This document shows, one piece after another, positions 32,008 through 64,000 of a stretch of DNA of 64,000 bases. Under the pieces are notes generated by a model that made no database searches, was not told the DNA's origin, and was given only the letters and a program-made list of their open reading frames with translations. The stretch is taken from positions 1 through 64,000 of the forward strand of contig NZ_JAQSDK010000026.1 in assembly GCF_029945885.1 (NCBI RefSeq). The letters run 5' to 3'. How positions within the stretch are numbered: position 1 is the first letter of the stretch; the number at the start of each line of letters is the position of its first letter. The position numbers and the translations under genes were made by a program. The stretch comes from Brevundimonas sp. (GTDB taxonomy: Bacteria > Pseudomonadota > Alphaproteobacteria > Caulobacterales > Caulobacteraceae).

Positions 32008-32637
32008 GTGGCCGGACCGGGGGCCGTGAAGGCGCGCGATCCCTATCATCTCGCCGTGGCCGCCCTGACGGATTTCGCCTCCGAAGGCCGGTTCGGCTGG
32101 GGCCGGCCGCTGGTCGCCACCGCCCTGGCGACCGAACTTGGCCTCAGCCCCACGCCGGTCCGCGAGGCCCTCGCCCGACTTTCCGGCGAGGGCGTGCTGG
32201 AGCACCGACCCGGGCACGGCTATTTCGCGCCGAGCCCGACGGCGTCGGACATCGCCGATCTCTATGAACTGCATTGGCGGCTGGCCGGATGGGCCATCGA
32301 GCGGATTCCGCCGGGCGCGCGGCCGCCGCGCCTGGAGGCGTCGCCTCGCCCCCGGATCGAGGCCTTCTACGACAACCTGCTGGCCTGGGCGGGCAATGAT
32401 GTGCTCGACCGGGTCTACCGCCGCACGGCGCTTCAGCTGCGTCCGGTCCGCCGGGTCGAGCGCGTCGTCGATCCGATCGCCGACGAGGCGGTCGCGCGTC
32501 AGGAGCAACTCTTTCTCGAAGGCCGGATCAGCGATCTCAGGCCGGCGATCGACGCCTACCATCGCAACCGGATCGCGGCCGCCCAGTCCGTGTTTTCAGT
32601 CATGCGACGGTCGGCGGAAAGTATAGACCGAATATAG
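32008..32637 (+). CDS. GntR-family regulator of the lasso locus
   Basis: A 209-residue regulator with an N-terminal winged helix: LATELGLSPTPVREALARLS and GEGVLEHRPGHGYF at residues about 45-80. The C-terminal effector region is short and helical, FCD-like but reduced. Start GTG at 32008 has GGAG close by; GTG at 32026 is an alternative. GntR-type regulators are part of lasso-peptide loci in Caulobacterales. The gene ends 72 bases before the precursor gene on the same strand. Confidence 0.8.
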   Translation: MAGPGAVKARDPYHLAVAALTDFASEGRFGWGRPLVATALATELGLSPTPVREALARLSGEGVLEHRPGHGYFAPSPTASDIADLYELHWRLAGWAIERIPPGARPPRLEASPRPRIEAFYDNLLAWAGNDVLDRVYRRTALQLRPVRRVERVVDPIADEAVARQEQLFLEGRISDLRPAIDAYHRNRIAAAQSVFSVMRRSAESIDRI

Positions 32638-32709
32638 TTTGAAAATAGGACCTGGCGGGCGCGGACTGGCGCGACGGGGCGATGGGCCCCGTTGACAGGA
32701 GGTTACGTC

Positions 32710-32937
32710 ATGAAGACCGCGACCACGCCGCGCCTGATCGGTCTGGGCTCCGCCCGGATCGCCACCCGCGCGGACGCCACCGAAGGCGACATGGAGCAGA
32801 TTCCGGTGCGACTCTATGAGAGCGCCGGCGTCCGCGCCGATCTCGTCCGGCTCGGCTCGGCCGAACAGGCCACCCGCGCCGATTCCACCACCGGGGATTT
32901 CGAACAGATCCCGGTGCGGCTCTGGCAGCAGGGCTGA
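32710..32937 (+). CDS. Lasso-peptide precursor with two tandem leader-core units
   Basis: 75 residues, ATG 7 bases after AGGAGG. It resembles astexin/caulonodin-type precursors, whose leaders carry an L-x-x-LG-x-A...TR pattern directly before the core. That pattern occurs twice: RLIGLGSARIATR (8-20) and DLVRLGSAEQATR (44-56), each with Thr at -2 and Arg at -1. The predicted cores are ADATEGDMEQIPVRLYES (21-38) and ADSTTGDFEQIPVRLWQQG (57-75). Each has Ala at position 1, Asp7 and Glu9 as possible ring acceptors (a 9-residue A1-E9 ring is likely), the shared segment EQIPVRL, and an aromatic residue at 16 as possible plug. Where core 1 ends is unclear because unit 2 follows directly. Ala1 lasso peptides are known from Caulobacter; tandem units in one precursor are unusual. 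Confidence 0.85.
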   Translation: MKTATTPRLIGLGSARIATRADATEGDMEQIPVRLYESAGVRADLVRLGSAEQATRADSTTGDFEQIPVRLWQQG

Positions 32938-32942
32938 CGGCG

Positions 32943-32969
32943 GGGGCGCCGGCTTCGCGCCGGCGCCCC
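32943..32969 (+). promoter_or_regulatory. Intercistronic hairpin between precursor and protease genes
   Basis: A perfect 11-bp stem (32943-32953 paired with 32959-32969, loop TTCGC) starts 6 bases after the precursor stop. It lacks a proper T tract. Such hairpins after RiPP precursor genes can stabilise the precursor transcript or partly terminate, raising precursor over enzyme expression; that role is inference. Confidence 0.55.
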
Positions 32970-32992
32970 TCGTCTGTCCGACCGCTTCGGCG

Positions 32993-33628
32993 ATGACCCT
33001 GTATCTCCGACATGACGTCCACGCCGTCGCCATCGGCGAGGATCTCGCCCTGCTCGACCTCGCGCGTGACGCCTATCTTTGCCTGCCCGGCGGCGCCGTC
33101 GCCCTGGAGCCGGGCGCCCGGGACGTGATACGGTCGGGGGCGGTGGCCGACGCCCTGCTGGCCGGGGGCGTGCTGGGTCCGGAGCCGCCGGCCGCGCGGT
33201 CCGCCCCGCCGCCGCTTCCGACGCGGACCCTCATCCATCAGCCCCTGTCCCGCGCCGTGTCGCCCCGGGTTCTCGCCGCCGCCGTCGCCGTGCCGGCGGA
33301 CATCCGCCGGGCCCGACGGGGCGAGGGGCTCGCCGCCTGGCTGGCGCTCGCCGAGGCCCGCCGTCCCCTGTCGCGCGATGCGGAGGCGGTAGAGGCGGCG
33401 GCGCGGCAGTTCTGGACCGTCGGCGCCTGGTTGCCGATCGAGGGCGAATGTCTGGTGCGCTCCGCCATGCTGGTCGCCTTCCTGCGCCGCATGGGCCTTT
33501 CCGCGGACTGGGTGTTCGGGGTCCGGCTCTGGCCCTTTGCCGCCCACTGCTGGGTGCAGTTCGGCGAGGTCTGTCTCAACGACGACGTCGAGCGGCTGTG
33601 GCCCTATACGCCCCTGTACCGCCGATGA
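32993..33628 (+). CDS. Lasso-peptide B protein (RRE-fused transglutaminase-like leader protease)
   Basis: A 211-residue protein. Residues 1-60 form a PqqD-like RiPP recognition element (MTLYLRHDVHAVAIGEDLAL, AYLCLPGG) that would bind the leader. Residues about 85-211 are the transglutaminase-like Cys protease: Cys153 in GECLVRSAML, His185 in FAAHCWVQFG and Asp197/198 in CLNDD form the expected triad. It removes the leader after the Thr-x site. In many Gram-positive loci RRE and protease are separate; the fusion is the proteobacterial form. The start at 32993 has no strong ribosome site. Its stop overlaps the cyclase start (ATGA). Confidence 0.9.
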   Translation: MTLYLRHDVHAVAIGEDLALLDLARDAYLCLPGGAVALEPGARDVIRSGAVADALLAGGVLGPEPPAARSAPPPLPTRTLIHQPLSRAVSPRVLAAAVAVPADIRRARRGEGLAAWLALAEARRPLSRDAEAVEAAARQFWTVGAWLPIEGECLVRSAMLVAFLRRMGLSADWVFGVRLWPFAAHCWVQFGEVCLNDDVERLWPYTPLYRR

Positions 33629-35418
33629 CGGTCCCGGGGCCCGCAGACCACGGCTATCTGATCCTTGACCGGCGCGGCCTCGGCGAGGCGTACCGCGCGC
33701 CCTTCGAGGCTGCGGTCGCGGACCTGGTGCGCCAGGGATGGCGCGCATCGCACGCGGTCGAGGACCTGCAGGTCCTGCTCGGTCCGCGAGCGCGTCTCAA
33801 GGTCCGCCAGGTCGGCCGTCGTCATTTCCTGATCGGCGACTGGCGCGGGCCGAAACCGCTGTCGACCCTTGTGGCCGTCAACAGCCGACCGGCGGACCTT
33901 GCCCGGTCGGTCGTCGGCGCCGGCTGGGGGCGCTACATCCTGACTTGGCGGGACGACGACGGCCGTCTCGCCCTGCTGCGCGATCCCACCGGGGCCATCG
34001 ATTGCGTCTGGTGGCGCCATGGCGGGGCTGTGCTGGCGGTCGCGGAGCCGCCGCGAGAACTCGATCCCCTCCTGCCCGCGGACCTGGCCATCGACTGGAC
34101 CGTGCTGCGGGAGATCGCCGAGGCGCCCGAGCTGCTCGGCGACCGTCTGGCGCTGACGGGGCTGACCGCGGTCAACCCCGGGACGCTCGCCCTGATCTCC
34201 GGGAACCATGCGTCCGTGCCGGTGTGGCGGCCCTCGACCTTCTGCCGGTCGGGCGCCGGGTGGGACGAAAGCCTCGGCGGCCTGGCCGGGGTGGTGGATG
34301 AAACGGTCGTCGACCTGGTCGATCCGCACCGCCGGGTCGTGGCCGAACTCTCCGGCGGACTGGATTCGGCTATCGTCGCCGGCAGTCTGGCTGCGACCGG
34401 GCTGGCCGGGCGGGCCCGGTTCCTCAACTTCCATGGCGACTGGCGCGAAGGCGACGAGCGGCCATGGGCCGAGGCGGTCGCCCGGAGGCTGGAGCTCGAC
34501 CTCGTCAGGGTCCGCAAGCCGGTCGAGGCCATCACCGTGCGCCAGCTCCGCCCCCTCGGTGAAAGCGTGCGGCCGGCGCTCCAGGGGGTCGACGTCACCT
34601 ATGACGGCGAGGTCGCCGCGCGCATGCGCCGGGGCCGCGCCACAGCCCTGGTGACGGGGCAGGGCGGCGACGCGGTCTTCTTCCAGGCGCCCGATCCCGC
34701 CGTGGCGGCCGACCGGTTCCGGCGCGAGGGACCGCCCGGCCTGTCCCCGGCCTTTCTTGCGGCGGTCGGACGTTGGACGCGCCATTCGGCCTGGACGGTG
34801 CTCGGCTGCGCCCTCGGGCTGCGCGCGACCGGACCCCGGCCCGCATCCGGGCGGCGGCATCCCTGGCTGGAGGACATCGAGGACCTGCCGCCGGCCAAGA
34901 CCGGGCAACTGCGCCAGTTCGTCAACGCCCAGCTGTTCTGGGGCGACTGCCTGCGCGCCCGCGCCGGGGATCTGCTCCATCCGCTACTGAGCCAGCCGGT
35001 GGTCGAGCATTGCCTCGCCATCCCCGCCGACCGGCTGATCGCGGGCGTGCGCGATCGCGGCCTGGCGCGTCAGGCCTTCTGCGGCCGCCTGCCGCCGATG
35101 CTGATCGAGCGCCGCAACAAGGGCGATCTCAGCTGCTTCTACGGCCATGTCACCCGCGCCAGTCTCGCGACTTTGAGGCCGCTGCTGCTCAACGGCCTTC
35201 AGGTCGACCAGGGGCTGCTCGACGGCAAGGCCCTGGAGCGCGACCTGGCGGAGGACCGGCTGATCGTCGGGCCGGGCTACAACCGGTTGCTGGTCGGGGC
35301 CGTGCTGGAGGTCTGGGCGCAGCACTGGGAGGGACGGATCGCCGACATCCGGTCGTCCGGATCGCGGCTCCGCCCGGCGAGGATCAGGAGGGGAGGCGGC
35401 GCAGACCGGCCGGGCTGA
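33625..35418 (+). CDS. Lasso-peptide C protein (asparagine-synthetase-like macrolactam cyclase)
   Basis: A 597-residue cyclase. The ATG at 33625 overlaps the B stop by 4 bases. The N-terminal half is glutaminase-like (YILTWRDDDGRLALLRDPTG) but lacks the N-terminal catalytic Cys, as in lasso cyclases. The ATP-pyrophosphatase motif SGGLDS is at 243-248, followed by LVTGQGGDAVFFQ. It adenylates the ring Asp/Glu side chain and closes the macrolactam onto residue 1. With A and B this is a complete minimal biosynthetic set. A related but broken copy of the last about 70 codons occurs at 60897-61110. Confidence 0.92.
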   Translation: MTVPGPADHGYLILDRRGLGEAYRAPFEAAVADLVRQGWRASHAVEDLQVLLGPRARLKVRQVGRRHFLIGDWRGPKPLSTLVAVNSRPADLARSVVGAGWGRYILTWRDDDGRLALLRDPTGAIDCVWWRHGGAVLAVAEPPRELDPLLPADLAIDWTVLREIAEAPELLGDRLALTGLTAVNPGTLALISGNHASVPVWRPSTFCRSGAGWDESLGGLAGVVDETVVDLVDPHRRVVAELSGGLDSAIVAGSLAATGLAGRARFLNFHGDWREGDERPWAEAVARRLELDLVRVRKPVEAITVRQLRPLGESVRPALQGVDVTYDGEVAARMRRGRATALVTGQGGDAVFFQAPDPAVAADRFRREGPPGLSPAFLAAVGRWTRHSAWTVLGCALGLRATGPRPASGRRHPWLEDIEDLPPAKTGQLRQFVNAQLFWGDCLRARAGDLLHPLLSQPVVEHCLAIPADRLIAGVRDRGLARQAFCGRLPPMLIERRNKGDLSCFYGHVTRASLATLRPLLLNGLQVDQGLLDGKALERDLAEDRLIVGPGYNRLLVGAVLEVWAQHWEGRIADIRSSGSRLRPARIRRGGGADRPG

Positions 35419-61203: not shown

Positions 61204-63654
61204 TCAGGGCGGCGAGCCGGGAATCTGAGCGGCCGGCCCCGGAGCCCGGGCGGCGTCGCCGAGCTGCGCCGGGCCCAGATAGCGGTCCAGCCAGGCGAGG
61301 ATGCGCGCGTGGAGGTCGCGCAGATTGGCGGGGCTGACAAACACATGGCCTTCGCCTGAATAGGTCACGAGATCGGCCTCGCGTCCCAGCCGGTACAGGG
61401 CCCCGAACAGGACATCGCCGCCGGCCGGATCGAGGTCGCCCTCGATCAGCAGAATGGGTGTGCGGATCCGATCGGCGAGGTAGATCGGACTGTTTTCGAC
61501 ATAGGCGTCGGGTCGCGCCGGCAGGCTGGCGCCGATCGCGCCTTGACCGCTCTCGGCCCAGCCCGCCAGGGCGTTGATCGGCACCCCGTCGTCGGGGGAG
61601 ACCAGAAAATGCGGCGTCAGGGCATAGACCCGAGAGAGGTCTGCGTATCCGGCCGAGGCGACCACCGCGCGGAAGCGCTCGCTCCGGGCCGCCGTCAGCA
61701 GGGCCGCGTGACCGCCATAGCTGTGGCCGATCAGCGCCACGCGGGAGGGGTCGACCGGCGCCTGGCGCGCCGCCTGGTCGACGACGGCGCCGATCCGTCC
61801 GCCCAGATCGTCGAGCCCCGTCCCGGCGCCGGCGGGGCGCGGCAGGGAGGGCACGAGCACGGCATAGCCGTGGGCGGCCAGGACAGCCGGATTGATATGT
61901 CGCCGCTCCCCACCCGGCCGGAGCCAGGACGGCGGGGCGGCATAGTCGGCGCCGGGGTAGAGGACCACCGCCACGGGCGCCGTCCCGCCGCCCGGGTCCG
62001 GCGGCGGAAGCAGCAGCCAGCTGGTCAGGACCTGGCCGTCCGGCCCGGGGTGGGTGACGGCTTCGATCCGGCCCCAGGCCAGCGGGTCGAGCGCGAGGTT
62101 AAGCACGGCGAGCGGATGGTCGCCGTTCAGGTCGCGGCGCAGCAGGCGGGTCGATCCCGTGGCCGACAGGCTCTGGACGACCGCGAAGCGCGCGTCCGGG
62201 CTGGCGGCGACGAGGCTCTCGTCCGGGCCCAGGGGCGGCAGGCAGGCGCCGGATCGCGACGCGCCGAGGCGGGCGAGACAGCCGGCCTGCAGCAGGATGC
62301 CCGGCGCGGGGCCGATGTCGGCCGGGTTGGTTCGCGCCCGGCCGCCGCTGTCGGCGGCGCGCTCGGGGCTCTGCAAGCCCCCGGGAAGACCCGGAGCGTC
62401 CGAGGACGCGTCGAGGCGATGCAGCCCGTCTCCGCGTTCGATCCAGGCATGACCGCCGGCCTGAAGCAGGCGTTCCGACGGTTCGCGCACGGGGATGGTC
62501 CGGGGGGTCGGCGCCGCGCGGCGCCACATCCGGGCGCCGTCTGTCGTACGGACCTGGACGACGGGCGCTCCGCCGTCCCAGCCGGCCCGCACGAAGGGCA
62601 TGCCGTCGGCCTGTTCGCCGACCCAGGGCCGGGCGTCCCCGAGCGGCGCGGCCCGGGCTGGCCCGGTGCGGAGGAGACGCCAGAAGCGGCCGTCGTCCCA
62701 CGACCCGCCGGGAGTCCGGCCGAAGGCCAGCACGGCCCGTCCGTCCGGCGACCAGCTCAGCAGATGCGACAGGAAATCCTCATCGGGCAGGGGCTCGTGC
62801 ACCCGGCGTTCGGCGACGTCGACCAGCAGCAACCGTCTCCGCCGCGCCGGCGTCCCGACGCGCACCGGGGCGTCGCCGCTCGCCTGCAGGTCCTCGGCGT
62901 CGGCGAGGACCGCGACCGTGTTTCCGTCCGGGGACAGCTCGAAGTCGAAGAGCGCCCCGACGGCGAGTTCGGTCTGGGCGCCCGTGCCGAGATCGAGCCG
63001 GACCAGGCGCGCCGGTGCGGCGCGATCGCGGTCGCCGCGACGCGCGCCGCCGGGAATGGAGACCGCGGAGGGCGCGTGACCGGTCTCGAACCGTCGCCAC
63101 AGGGCCGCCTTGCGCGCCTGGGTCTGGCCGCCGAGACGGAACACCAGGGGAAGATCGTCGGGCGCGCGCGCGATCACGATCACCTCCGTCGGCGAGCGCC
63201 AGGCGACCGTGCGGCCGAGGCCCGTGTACTCCGGTGTCAGGGCGAACCACCGGGCTTCGCCGGTCGCCAGGGTCAGGACCCCGAGGCGCCAGCTCGTCTC
63301 GGTCAACCGGAAGACCAGCATCCGCTCGCCATCGGGGGAGAAGGGCCCGGAGACATAGCCGGTCGCGTGGCCGGGGTCGGAAATGACCCGCGGCGGCGCG
63401 TCGGATGTCGCGTCGTGTATCTCCAGACCGCTCAACAGCTGTGTCGTCATCAGCCCGAAGCGGTAGCTGGCCGCCGACGACCAGGCGGCGCGGCGCTCGA
63501 CGACGATCCAACGGCCGCCGGGTCCGATCCGGACCTGGCCGAGGCTTTCCTGGCCCAGCACGGCCTCGATGGTGACCGGCTGCGGCGTCTCGCCGACGGC
63601 CGGGCTGGCCGCCGTCCCGAGGACGGCGGCCAGCAGCAGACCGACCCCACGCAT
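61204..63654 (-). CDS. Atxe2-type lasso-peptide isopeptidase (S9 prolyl-oligopeptidase fold)
   Basis: About 816 residues with a signal peptide (GVGLLLAAVLGTAASPAVG). The N-terminal two thirds form a beta-propeller-like domain with LSPDGNTVAVLADAED and SWSPDGRAVLAFGR repeats. The C-terminal alpha/beta-hydrolase has Ser in GHSYGGHAALL, Asp in IEGDLDPAGGD and His in YSGEGHVFVSP. In Caulobacterales and Sphingomonads, isopeptidases of this type sit beside lasso genes and cut the macrolactam, linearising the peptide. At over 800 residues it is longer than the about 700 usual, with extra Gly/Arg/Pro-rich loops near residues 200-225 and 420-450. Its ATG shares a base with the TonB receptor stop. Confidence 0.85.
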   Translation of the reverse strand: MRGVGLLLAAVLGTAASPAVGETPQPVTIEAVLGQESLGQVRIGPGGRWIVVERRAAWSSAASYRFGLMTTQLLSGLEIHDATSDAPPRVISDPGHATGYVSGPFSPDGERMLVFRLTETSWRLGVLTLATGEARWFALTPEYTGLGRTVAWRSPTEVIVIARAPDDLPLVFRLGGQTQARKAALWRRFETGHAPSAVSIPGGARRGDRDRAAPARLVRLDLGTGAQTELAVGALFDFELSPDGNTVAVLADAEDLQASGDAPVRVGTPARRRRLLLVDVAERRVHEPLPDEDFLSHLLSWSPDGRAVLAFGRTPGGSWDDGRFWRLLRTGPARAAPLGDARPWVGEQADGMPFVRAGWDGGAPVVQVRTTDGARMWRRAAPTPRTIPVREPSERLLQAGGHAWIERGDGLHRLDASSDAPGLPGGLQSPERAADSGGRARTNPADIGPAPGILLQAGCLARLGASRSGACLPPLGPDESLVAASPDARFAVVQSLSATGSTRLLRRDLNGDHPLAVLNLALDPLAWGRIEAVTHPGPDGQVLTSWLLLPPPDPGGGTAPVAVVLYPGADYAAPPSWLRPGGERRHINPAVLAAHGYAVLVPSLPRPAGAGTGLDDLGGRIGAVVDQAARQAPVDPSRVALIGHSYGGHAALLTAARSERFRAVVASAGYADLSRVYALTPHFLVSPDDGVPINALAGWAESGQGAIGASLPARPDAYVENSPIYLADRIRTPILLIEGDLDPAGGDVLFGALYRLGREADLVTYSGEGHVFVSPANLRDLHARILAWLDRYLGPAQLGDAARAPGPAAQIPGSPP

Positions 63655-64000
63655 CACCAGGTCCGGGTCAGCTGCAGGGCGATGAAGCGGCCGATGACGC
63701 TGGTGTTGGCCGCATCATAGCCGATGCCTTCGGGCGCATCGTAGAAGGGCGGATCGTGATCGAACAGATTCTGCACCGTCAGGGCGACGGCCGACCCCTG
63801 GAACGGCCCGGTCTCGGGCGCATAGCGGATCTGGGCGTCGGCCGTGGTCCAGGAGCCGATGCGCGACCCGGCGAGGTCGCGGTAGGAATCGACGTACTGC
63901 AGCGAGGCCGAGGCGCTCCAGGGGCCGCGCGCCCAGCCCAGGGAGCCGCGGCCCCGCAGGCCGACCGGATAGTTGGGACGATCGCGCAGCGACTGCGGCG
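63654..64000 (-). CDS. TonB-dependent receptor, C-terminal part (runs off the window)
   Basis: The last about 115 residues of a beta-barrel receptor: GSLGWARGPWSASASLQYVD, SWTTADAQIRYAPETG, ALTVQNLFDHDPPFYDAPEG and the final FIALQLTRTW with a C-terminal aromatic. The NLFD...PP...Y motif is typical of TonB receptors. It lies directly upstream of the isopeptidase with overlapping stop and start, the known lasso import-and-cleavage pair. Substrate, presumably the lasso peptide, is inferred from position. Confidence 0.88.
   Translation of the reverse strand, partial: PQSLRDRPNYPVGLRGRGSLGWARGPWSASASLQYVDSYRDLAGSRIGSWTTADAQIRYAPETGPFQGSAVALTVQNLFDHDPPFYDAPEGIGYDAANTSVIGRFIALQLTRTW

Follow-up and report, generated by a model that had tools for sequence, protein, structure and literature searches.

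The precursor gene and its two units

The window considered here is the whole analysed stretch of 64,000 nucleotides of Brevundimonas sp. DNA (contig NZ_JAQSDK010000026.1, forward strand), and its element of interest is a lasso peptide operon, in which the precursor gene A is followed by the genes of a B protein and a C protein (Table 1). Lasso peptides are usually treated as having one core per precursor. This habit, usual rather than defining, is not followed by the open reading frame (ORF) at 32710–32937, where two leader–core units are present. We consider it likely, judging from sequence, that this is a working two-unit lasso precursor, probably the fusion of a gene pair, from which both cores would be cut and cyclised, the tail of lasso 1 being trimmed later.

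Table 1. Features of the lasso operon and of its surroundings in the window
Feature	Position	Strand	Basis
Precursor A, 75 residues, two leader–core units	32710..32937	+	translation, unit alignment, homologues
Shine-Dalgarno-like AGGAGG	32697..32702	+	sequence; 7 bases 5' of the precursor ATG
Leader 1, residues 1–20, ending GSARIATR	32710..32769	+	motif GxAxxxTR
Core 1, residues 21–38 (provisional C-terminus); Ala1, Glu9, Tyr16	32770..32823	+	alignment; pN/pS 0.33
Core 1 tail and leader 2, residues 39–56, ending GSAEQATR	32824..32877	+	alignment; pN/pS 0.30
Core 2, residues 57–75; Ala1, Glu9, Trp16	32878..32934	+	alignment; pN/pS 0.30
Strong RNA hairpin at the stop of A, probably acting as an A–BC attenuator (putative role)	32936..32978	+	folding
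B protein, 211 residues: recognition-like N-terminal part, cysteine protease (Cys153, His185, Asp197)	32993..33628	+	PF13471, NF033537, invariant residues, AlphaFold model, fold comparison
C protein, 597 residues, asparagine-synthase-like cyclase	33625..35418	+	PF00733; SGGLDS motif
GntR-like regulator 5' of the precursor	32008..32637	+	ORF cluster c14, shared with an L035 protein matching Pfam GntR
S9 peptidase, isopeptidase-like, 817 residues, about 26 kb from C	61204..63657	-	ORF, NCBIfam match

The ORF, on the forward strand, is translated as MKTATTPRLIGLGSARIATR, ADATEGDMEQIPVRLYES, AGVRADLVRLGSAEQATR and ADSTTGDFEQIPVRLWQQG, the division into four parts being ours. The earlier note described it as containing two complete leader–core units, and this is borne out by the translation and by the alignment of the units, whose BLOSUM62 score is 99 over 29 residues. 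Since 5000 shuffles of unit 2 yield a mean of 19.6 (standard deviation 4.1) and a maximum of 43, the repeat is not due to chance. The sequence also agrees with the view that leader 2 is the C-terminal extension of core 1. In both units TR directly precedes Ala1, and both have the marks of a lasso precursor (Thr at −2, a small residue at position 1, an Asp or Glu acceptor at positions 7–9). Nearly every lasso precursor reported so far has Thr at −2 (PMC10368454).

Folding of the 58 bases at 32935–32992 yields −40.2 kcal/mol (z-score −3.9), and all eight relatives that were folded have stable structures 3' of the precursor stop, the sequence of one containing masked bases. It is probable, from these foldings, that the hairpin at the stop acts as an attenuator between A and BC.

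Conservation of the units in the Caulobacteraceae

The search for other ORFs with two motifs, suggested in the earlier note, was productive. Multi-unit precursors are present in 22 of 390 genomes of the Caulobacteraceae, the window's own included: fourteen have two units, seven have three, and one has a broken frame of the first leader. All but one of these genomes are from the window's genus, the remaining one being from another genus of the family. The precursor was compared with 131 genomes of the genus (49 match with an E-value of at most 0.1, many only weakly), and the precursor alignment with the 390 genomes of the family (48 match). Among the 26 genomes matched in the latter search that have no multi-unit precursor, nine were read, and the rest match about one unit or contain a stop. 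Protein databases yielded 64 matches, and the total number of distinct complete multi-unit precursors read is likewise 64; named records with such a precursor belong to Brevundimonas species and to genomes titled Caulobacterales, Caulobacteraceae or Caulobacter. The presence of two-unit precursors in many genomes and proteins rules out an assembly artefact. Among 385 genomes drawn from the class, a multi-unit precursor was found in the window's own genome only.

A self-repeat scan of 424 ORFs of 50–250 residues upstream of B, covering 78 of 80 loci (these 80 were kept out of 316 B-like places), picked up 14 of 17 known fused loci; it missed L062, L070 and the frame-shifted L067, and thus is not fully sensitive. 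Outside the fused clade the scan flagged a few ORFs (two of them, L081 and L095, well above their shuffles), none of which we take, from sequence, for a lasso precursor. In L067/L185 (B. albigilva, G003) the two-unit precursor has the start of leader 1 out of frame with core 1, and the databases contain an intact close relative of it, P0047.

Conservation was assessed in 71 distinct complete precursors (59 with two units, five with three and seven with one), which comprise 140 units, a unit being defined by GxAxxxTR alone. Fifteen of the 64 database proteins, being fragments or chimeras (P0013, P0022, P0030, P0037, P0046, P0054, P0056–P0063, P0067), and the frame-shifted L067 were dropped before counting. 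The single-gene precursors of L186–L193 and L052 lie outside this set, so its seven single-unit rows are no census. One of the dropped proteins, P0030 (86 residues), resembles a unit-loss recombinant of a 105-residue three-unit precursor and could be an artefact of assembly.

Position 9 is Glu in all 140 units, whereas position 7 is Asp in 30. Hence, on this alignment, the ring is most likely closed between Ala1 and Glu9; of the two acceptors proposed earlier, Glu9 stands and Asp7 is dropped. Position 1 is occupied by Ala in 137 units, by Gly in two and by Ser in one. The earlier note regarded Ala1 as rare, which does not hold for this family, nor for lasso peptides at large, as a review lists Ala among their common first residues (PMC7549694). 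The sixteenth residue depends on the place of the core: it is Tyr in 69 out of 69 non-terminal cores, and in the 64 terminal ones it is Trp (53) or Tyr (11). The core-to-core spacing is 32–36 residues in all 69 cases, every linker is in frame, and Gly20 is present in 61 of the 69 linkers.

The ratios of nonsynonymous to synonymous differences (pN/pS), which pool non-independent pairs of short sequences, are 0.75 for leader 1, 0.33 for core 1, 0.30 for leader 2 and 0.30 for core 2 in the window's clade (six sequences). Two further two-unit clades, with three sequences apiece, have 0.40 and 0.18 for core 1 and 0.21 and 0.34, respectively, for core 2. Along the precursors of the window's clade, pN is lowest (0.048) in the linker with leader 2. 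By these ratios core 1 is under purifying constraint, though not everywhere as strong as that of core 2, which argues that it is not a dead extension. Absence or degeneration of unit 1 in close relatives, named in the earlier note as a sign of such an extension, is not what was found; 21 of the 22 multi-unit genomes have a whole, in-frame unit 1.

Origin and maturation of the two-unit precursor

Clusters with related B proteins hold separate single-core genes. In seven loci of one type (L186–L189, L191–L193) the core of the first gene has Tyr16 and that of the second gene Trp16, the core pair being the same in L191 and L192; in L073 and L074 the first core has Phe16 and the second one Trp16. 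All these paired cores have Ala1 and Glu9, which are absent from the core of a third gene in L193. Thus the pairs resemble the fused precursors in Ala1, Glu9, an aromatic residue at position 16 and Trp16 of the second core, and differ from the window in that the cores are encoded by separate genes. The order Tyr/Phe, then Trp, is observed in the nine closest unfused loci and is absent from the more distant two-gene clusters L052 and L076. That close loci with unfused genes show this order suggests that a gene pair was fused.

A tree of 47 B proteins places the fused forms in one group of 23, with moderate support (Shimodaira–Hasegawa-like approximate likelihood ratio test, SH-aLRT, 92) and with L073/L074 as the sister; two of the 23 rows (L053, L055) have no precursor in view. 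The three-unit forms occupy two positions of the tree. The simplest reading of the tree and the core order would be one fusion of an ordered gene pair, followed by unit gains in two lineages and perhaps by unit losses. At locus L053/L164 (G044:C3) a B gene, whose product is 89% identical, and a C gene are seen with no precursor or GntR gene alongside, and a precursor-bearing cluster is situated elsewhere in that genome. In one clade (L173, L175, L177) there is a probable extra single-unit precursor gene between A and B, with the core starting with AC or AS.

The maturation that we favour would proceed as follows. The N-terminal part of B would bind each leader, and B would cut after each GxAxxxTR. 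The double cut at TR would remove leader 1, free core 2 in its final form and free core 1 with leader 2 as its tail. C would then link the amine of each freed Ala1 to Glu9 of its own core, yielding two lassos with nine-residue rings; at this stage lasso 1 would have 36 residues, 27 of them past the ring, with leader 2 within the tail. Finally, peptidases may trim this tail towards the plug region near Tyr16, which is the least certain step. In the unfused loci of the L186 type the Tyr16-type core ends six residues past Tyr16, and this suggests that core 1, too, may end about six residues after Tyr16. The earlier note proposed that the maturation could be novel; on our analysis novelty is not needed: two cuts by the usual B protease, ring closure by the usual cyclase and C-terminal trimming of the ordinary kind would be enough.

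Several cores per precursor are known in multi-core graspetides and cyanobactins, and in many of these one leader serves several cores. The window shares multi-core precursors with them and differs in chemistry and in that each core has its own leader. A closer parallel for the predicted lasso 1 is provided by pandonodin and engineered lasso fusions, which likewise have a long C-terminal extension past the threaded part (PMC13352647, PMC13003496); there the extension is either a tail of native origin or one fused on by engineering, whereas here it is a second leader followed, in the precursor, by a second lasso core. Because the pandonodin enzymes cleaved and cyclised a lasso precursor extended by 98 residues at its C-terminus (PMC13003496), the leader-2 tail need not block ring closure. 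Endogenous carboxypeptidases, in turn, have been reported to truncate C-termini (PMC13352647).

Two alternatives would leave trimming aside or assign it to a special enzyme. Lasso 1 might stay untrimmed, as a mature 36-residue product with leader 2 as a functional tail. The low pN of the linker with leader 2 and the tolerance of the pandonodin enzymes for long fused tails fit this; however, leader 2 has to be conserved anyway for the maturation of core 2, the core-to-core spacing varies, and the end of the unfused Tyr16-type core lies close to Tyr16, so we consider an untrimmed product unlikely. It is quite unlikely that a dedicated enzyme, possibly the S9 peptidase of the cluster, cuts between core 1 and leader 2. 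The frequent Gly20 of the linkers fits such a cutter, as does the S9 gene called next to the operon in 17 of the 19 relative loci, but the best NCBIfam match of the S9 enzyme is the AtxE2 isopeptidase model, far below the cut-off, with the same result for the S9 enzyme of the two-gene cluster L052. Several terminal and single-core precursors, too, end in a tail containing Gly, so this tail may be ancestral and not a cut site.

Other explanations deny that both units are matured from one chain. If a single unit were matured per molecule, the second leader would serve to raise local enzyme binding and the output would be mixed. Such an effect has a precedent in an engineered graspetide, which was better modified with two leaders on one precursor (PMC13003496), although avidity would not require the fixed difference at position 16 between non-terminal and terminal cores that most of the family shows, which makes this reading very unlikely. 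Highly improbable is a unit 1 that is a dead remnant, lengthening the leader of core 2, with a single lasso made. Core 2 alone has a free C-terminus, as in ordinary precursors, and leader 1 is more variable than leader 2 in the window's clade. Against that, non-terminal cores retain Ala1 or another small residue, Glu9 and Tyr16 throughout the family, the pN/pS of core 1 is near that of core 2, three-unit forms have appeared at two positions of the tree, and the Tyr16-type core has its own gene in the unfused relatives. Still less weight is due to translation of unit 2 on its own from an internal start, Met28, which would make the fusion only apparent. The window does have an ATG at residue 28 with GAAGGCGAC before it, but GAAGG is missing in four of the six sequences of its clade, no Met is present at residues 21–60 in seven of 17 family sequences, and all linkers are in frame. 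As the internal start is not conserved, we ruled it out.

The locus would thus appear to encode a natural polyprotein lasso precursor, in which knotted peptides, usually made one per gene, come from one chain. No multi-core lasso precursor was found in the literature searched, whose coverage was limited and partial, so its absence in print is not shown. A natural leader–core concatemer would show B and C working repeatedly on one chain and would be a design for several lasso peptides from a single gene. Genome-mining tools built for single-core precursors would overlook core 1 or put the leader in the wrong place. The pairing of Tyr-type with Trp-type cores hints that lasso peptides of isopeptidase-type clusters may function jointly; the role of these peptides is called enigmatic in a review (PMC9266682). 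As a tentative and rather doubtful extension, this may be an obligate two-component system of Tyr16-type and Trp16-type lassos acting together, produced in a fixed ratio from the polyprotein here and from paired genes in the relatives, with the first peptide formed via a lasso intermediate that has an active leader as its tail.

Neighbouring genes and the cluster setting

The B protein matches NF033537 with 70.9 bits (cut-off 33) and PF13471 with 73.8 bits (cut-off 26). Its Cys153, His185 and Asp197, which we take to be catalytic, are unchanged across 12 B proteins, and a moderate fold match, from comparison of the AlphaFold model, is what points to its recognition part. The C protein matches PF00733 with 73.2 bits (cut-off 21), and the lasso cyclase models NF033561 and NF033535 match it below their cut-offs. 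A sequence search of solved structures gave no match for B or C. All NCBIfam matches of the GntR-like protein itself are below cut-off. In 19 relative loci no gene besides the precursors and B is seen between GntR and C by an ORF caller that considers at least 70 residues and miscalls several B and C genes.

Gene counts near the operon in these 19 loci are 17 for the S9 peptidase, 19 for the TonB receptor, 16 for FecR, 15 for FecI and 10 for GntR; these are clusters from the crude ORF caller, with a Pfam check in L035 only. In the relatives, the S9, TonB receptor, FecR and FecI genes lie on the opposite strand 3' of C, and GntR lies 5' of the precursor. The S9 peptidase of the window has NF033523 (the AtxE2 isopeptidase model) as its best NCBIfam match, at 70.4 bits, the cut-off being 400. 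Beyond its gene are TonB and FecR genes, assigned by size and sequence start; no FecI ORF is listed there. By gene content the operon is an isopeptidase-type lasso cluster. To our knowledge, astexins, benenodin and sphingopyxin have one core per precursor. Their proteobacterial clusters, like the present one, combine a GntR-like gene, the precursor, B, C, S9, the TonB receptor and FecR/FecI (gene order according to PMC9266682); unlike them, the clusters described here have two or three units in one ORF.

The window's genome has a second lasso cluster, the above-mentioned L052 (G000:C2, 226–246 kb), with two separate short single-core precursors. A cut after TR or TQ would give their cores Asp at position 1, where it is unusual.

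Type IV secretion-like genes are situated upstream of the lasso operon at 25–31 kb of the window and in L033–L048 and L051 (cluster c0, 17 of the 19 relative loci). This cluster is missing from L049 and L050, the two loci with separate precursor genes. Of these genes only that of a VirB1-like protein matched a model, below the cut-off. The region 35500–61200, between C and the S9 gene, has a GC content of 67% versus 74% and, by the look of the sequence, contains histidine kinase, RND, MFS and ABC efflux genes and regulators. L033, a close relative, has its S9 gene directly 3' of C, and in L164 genes like those of this region adjoin C.
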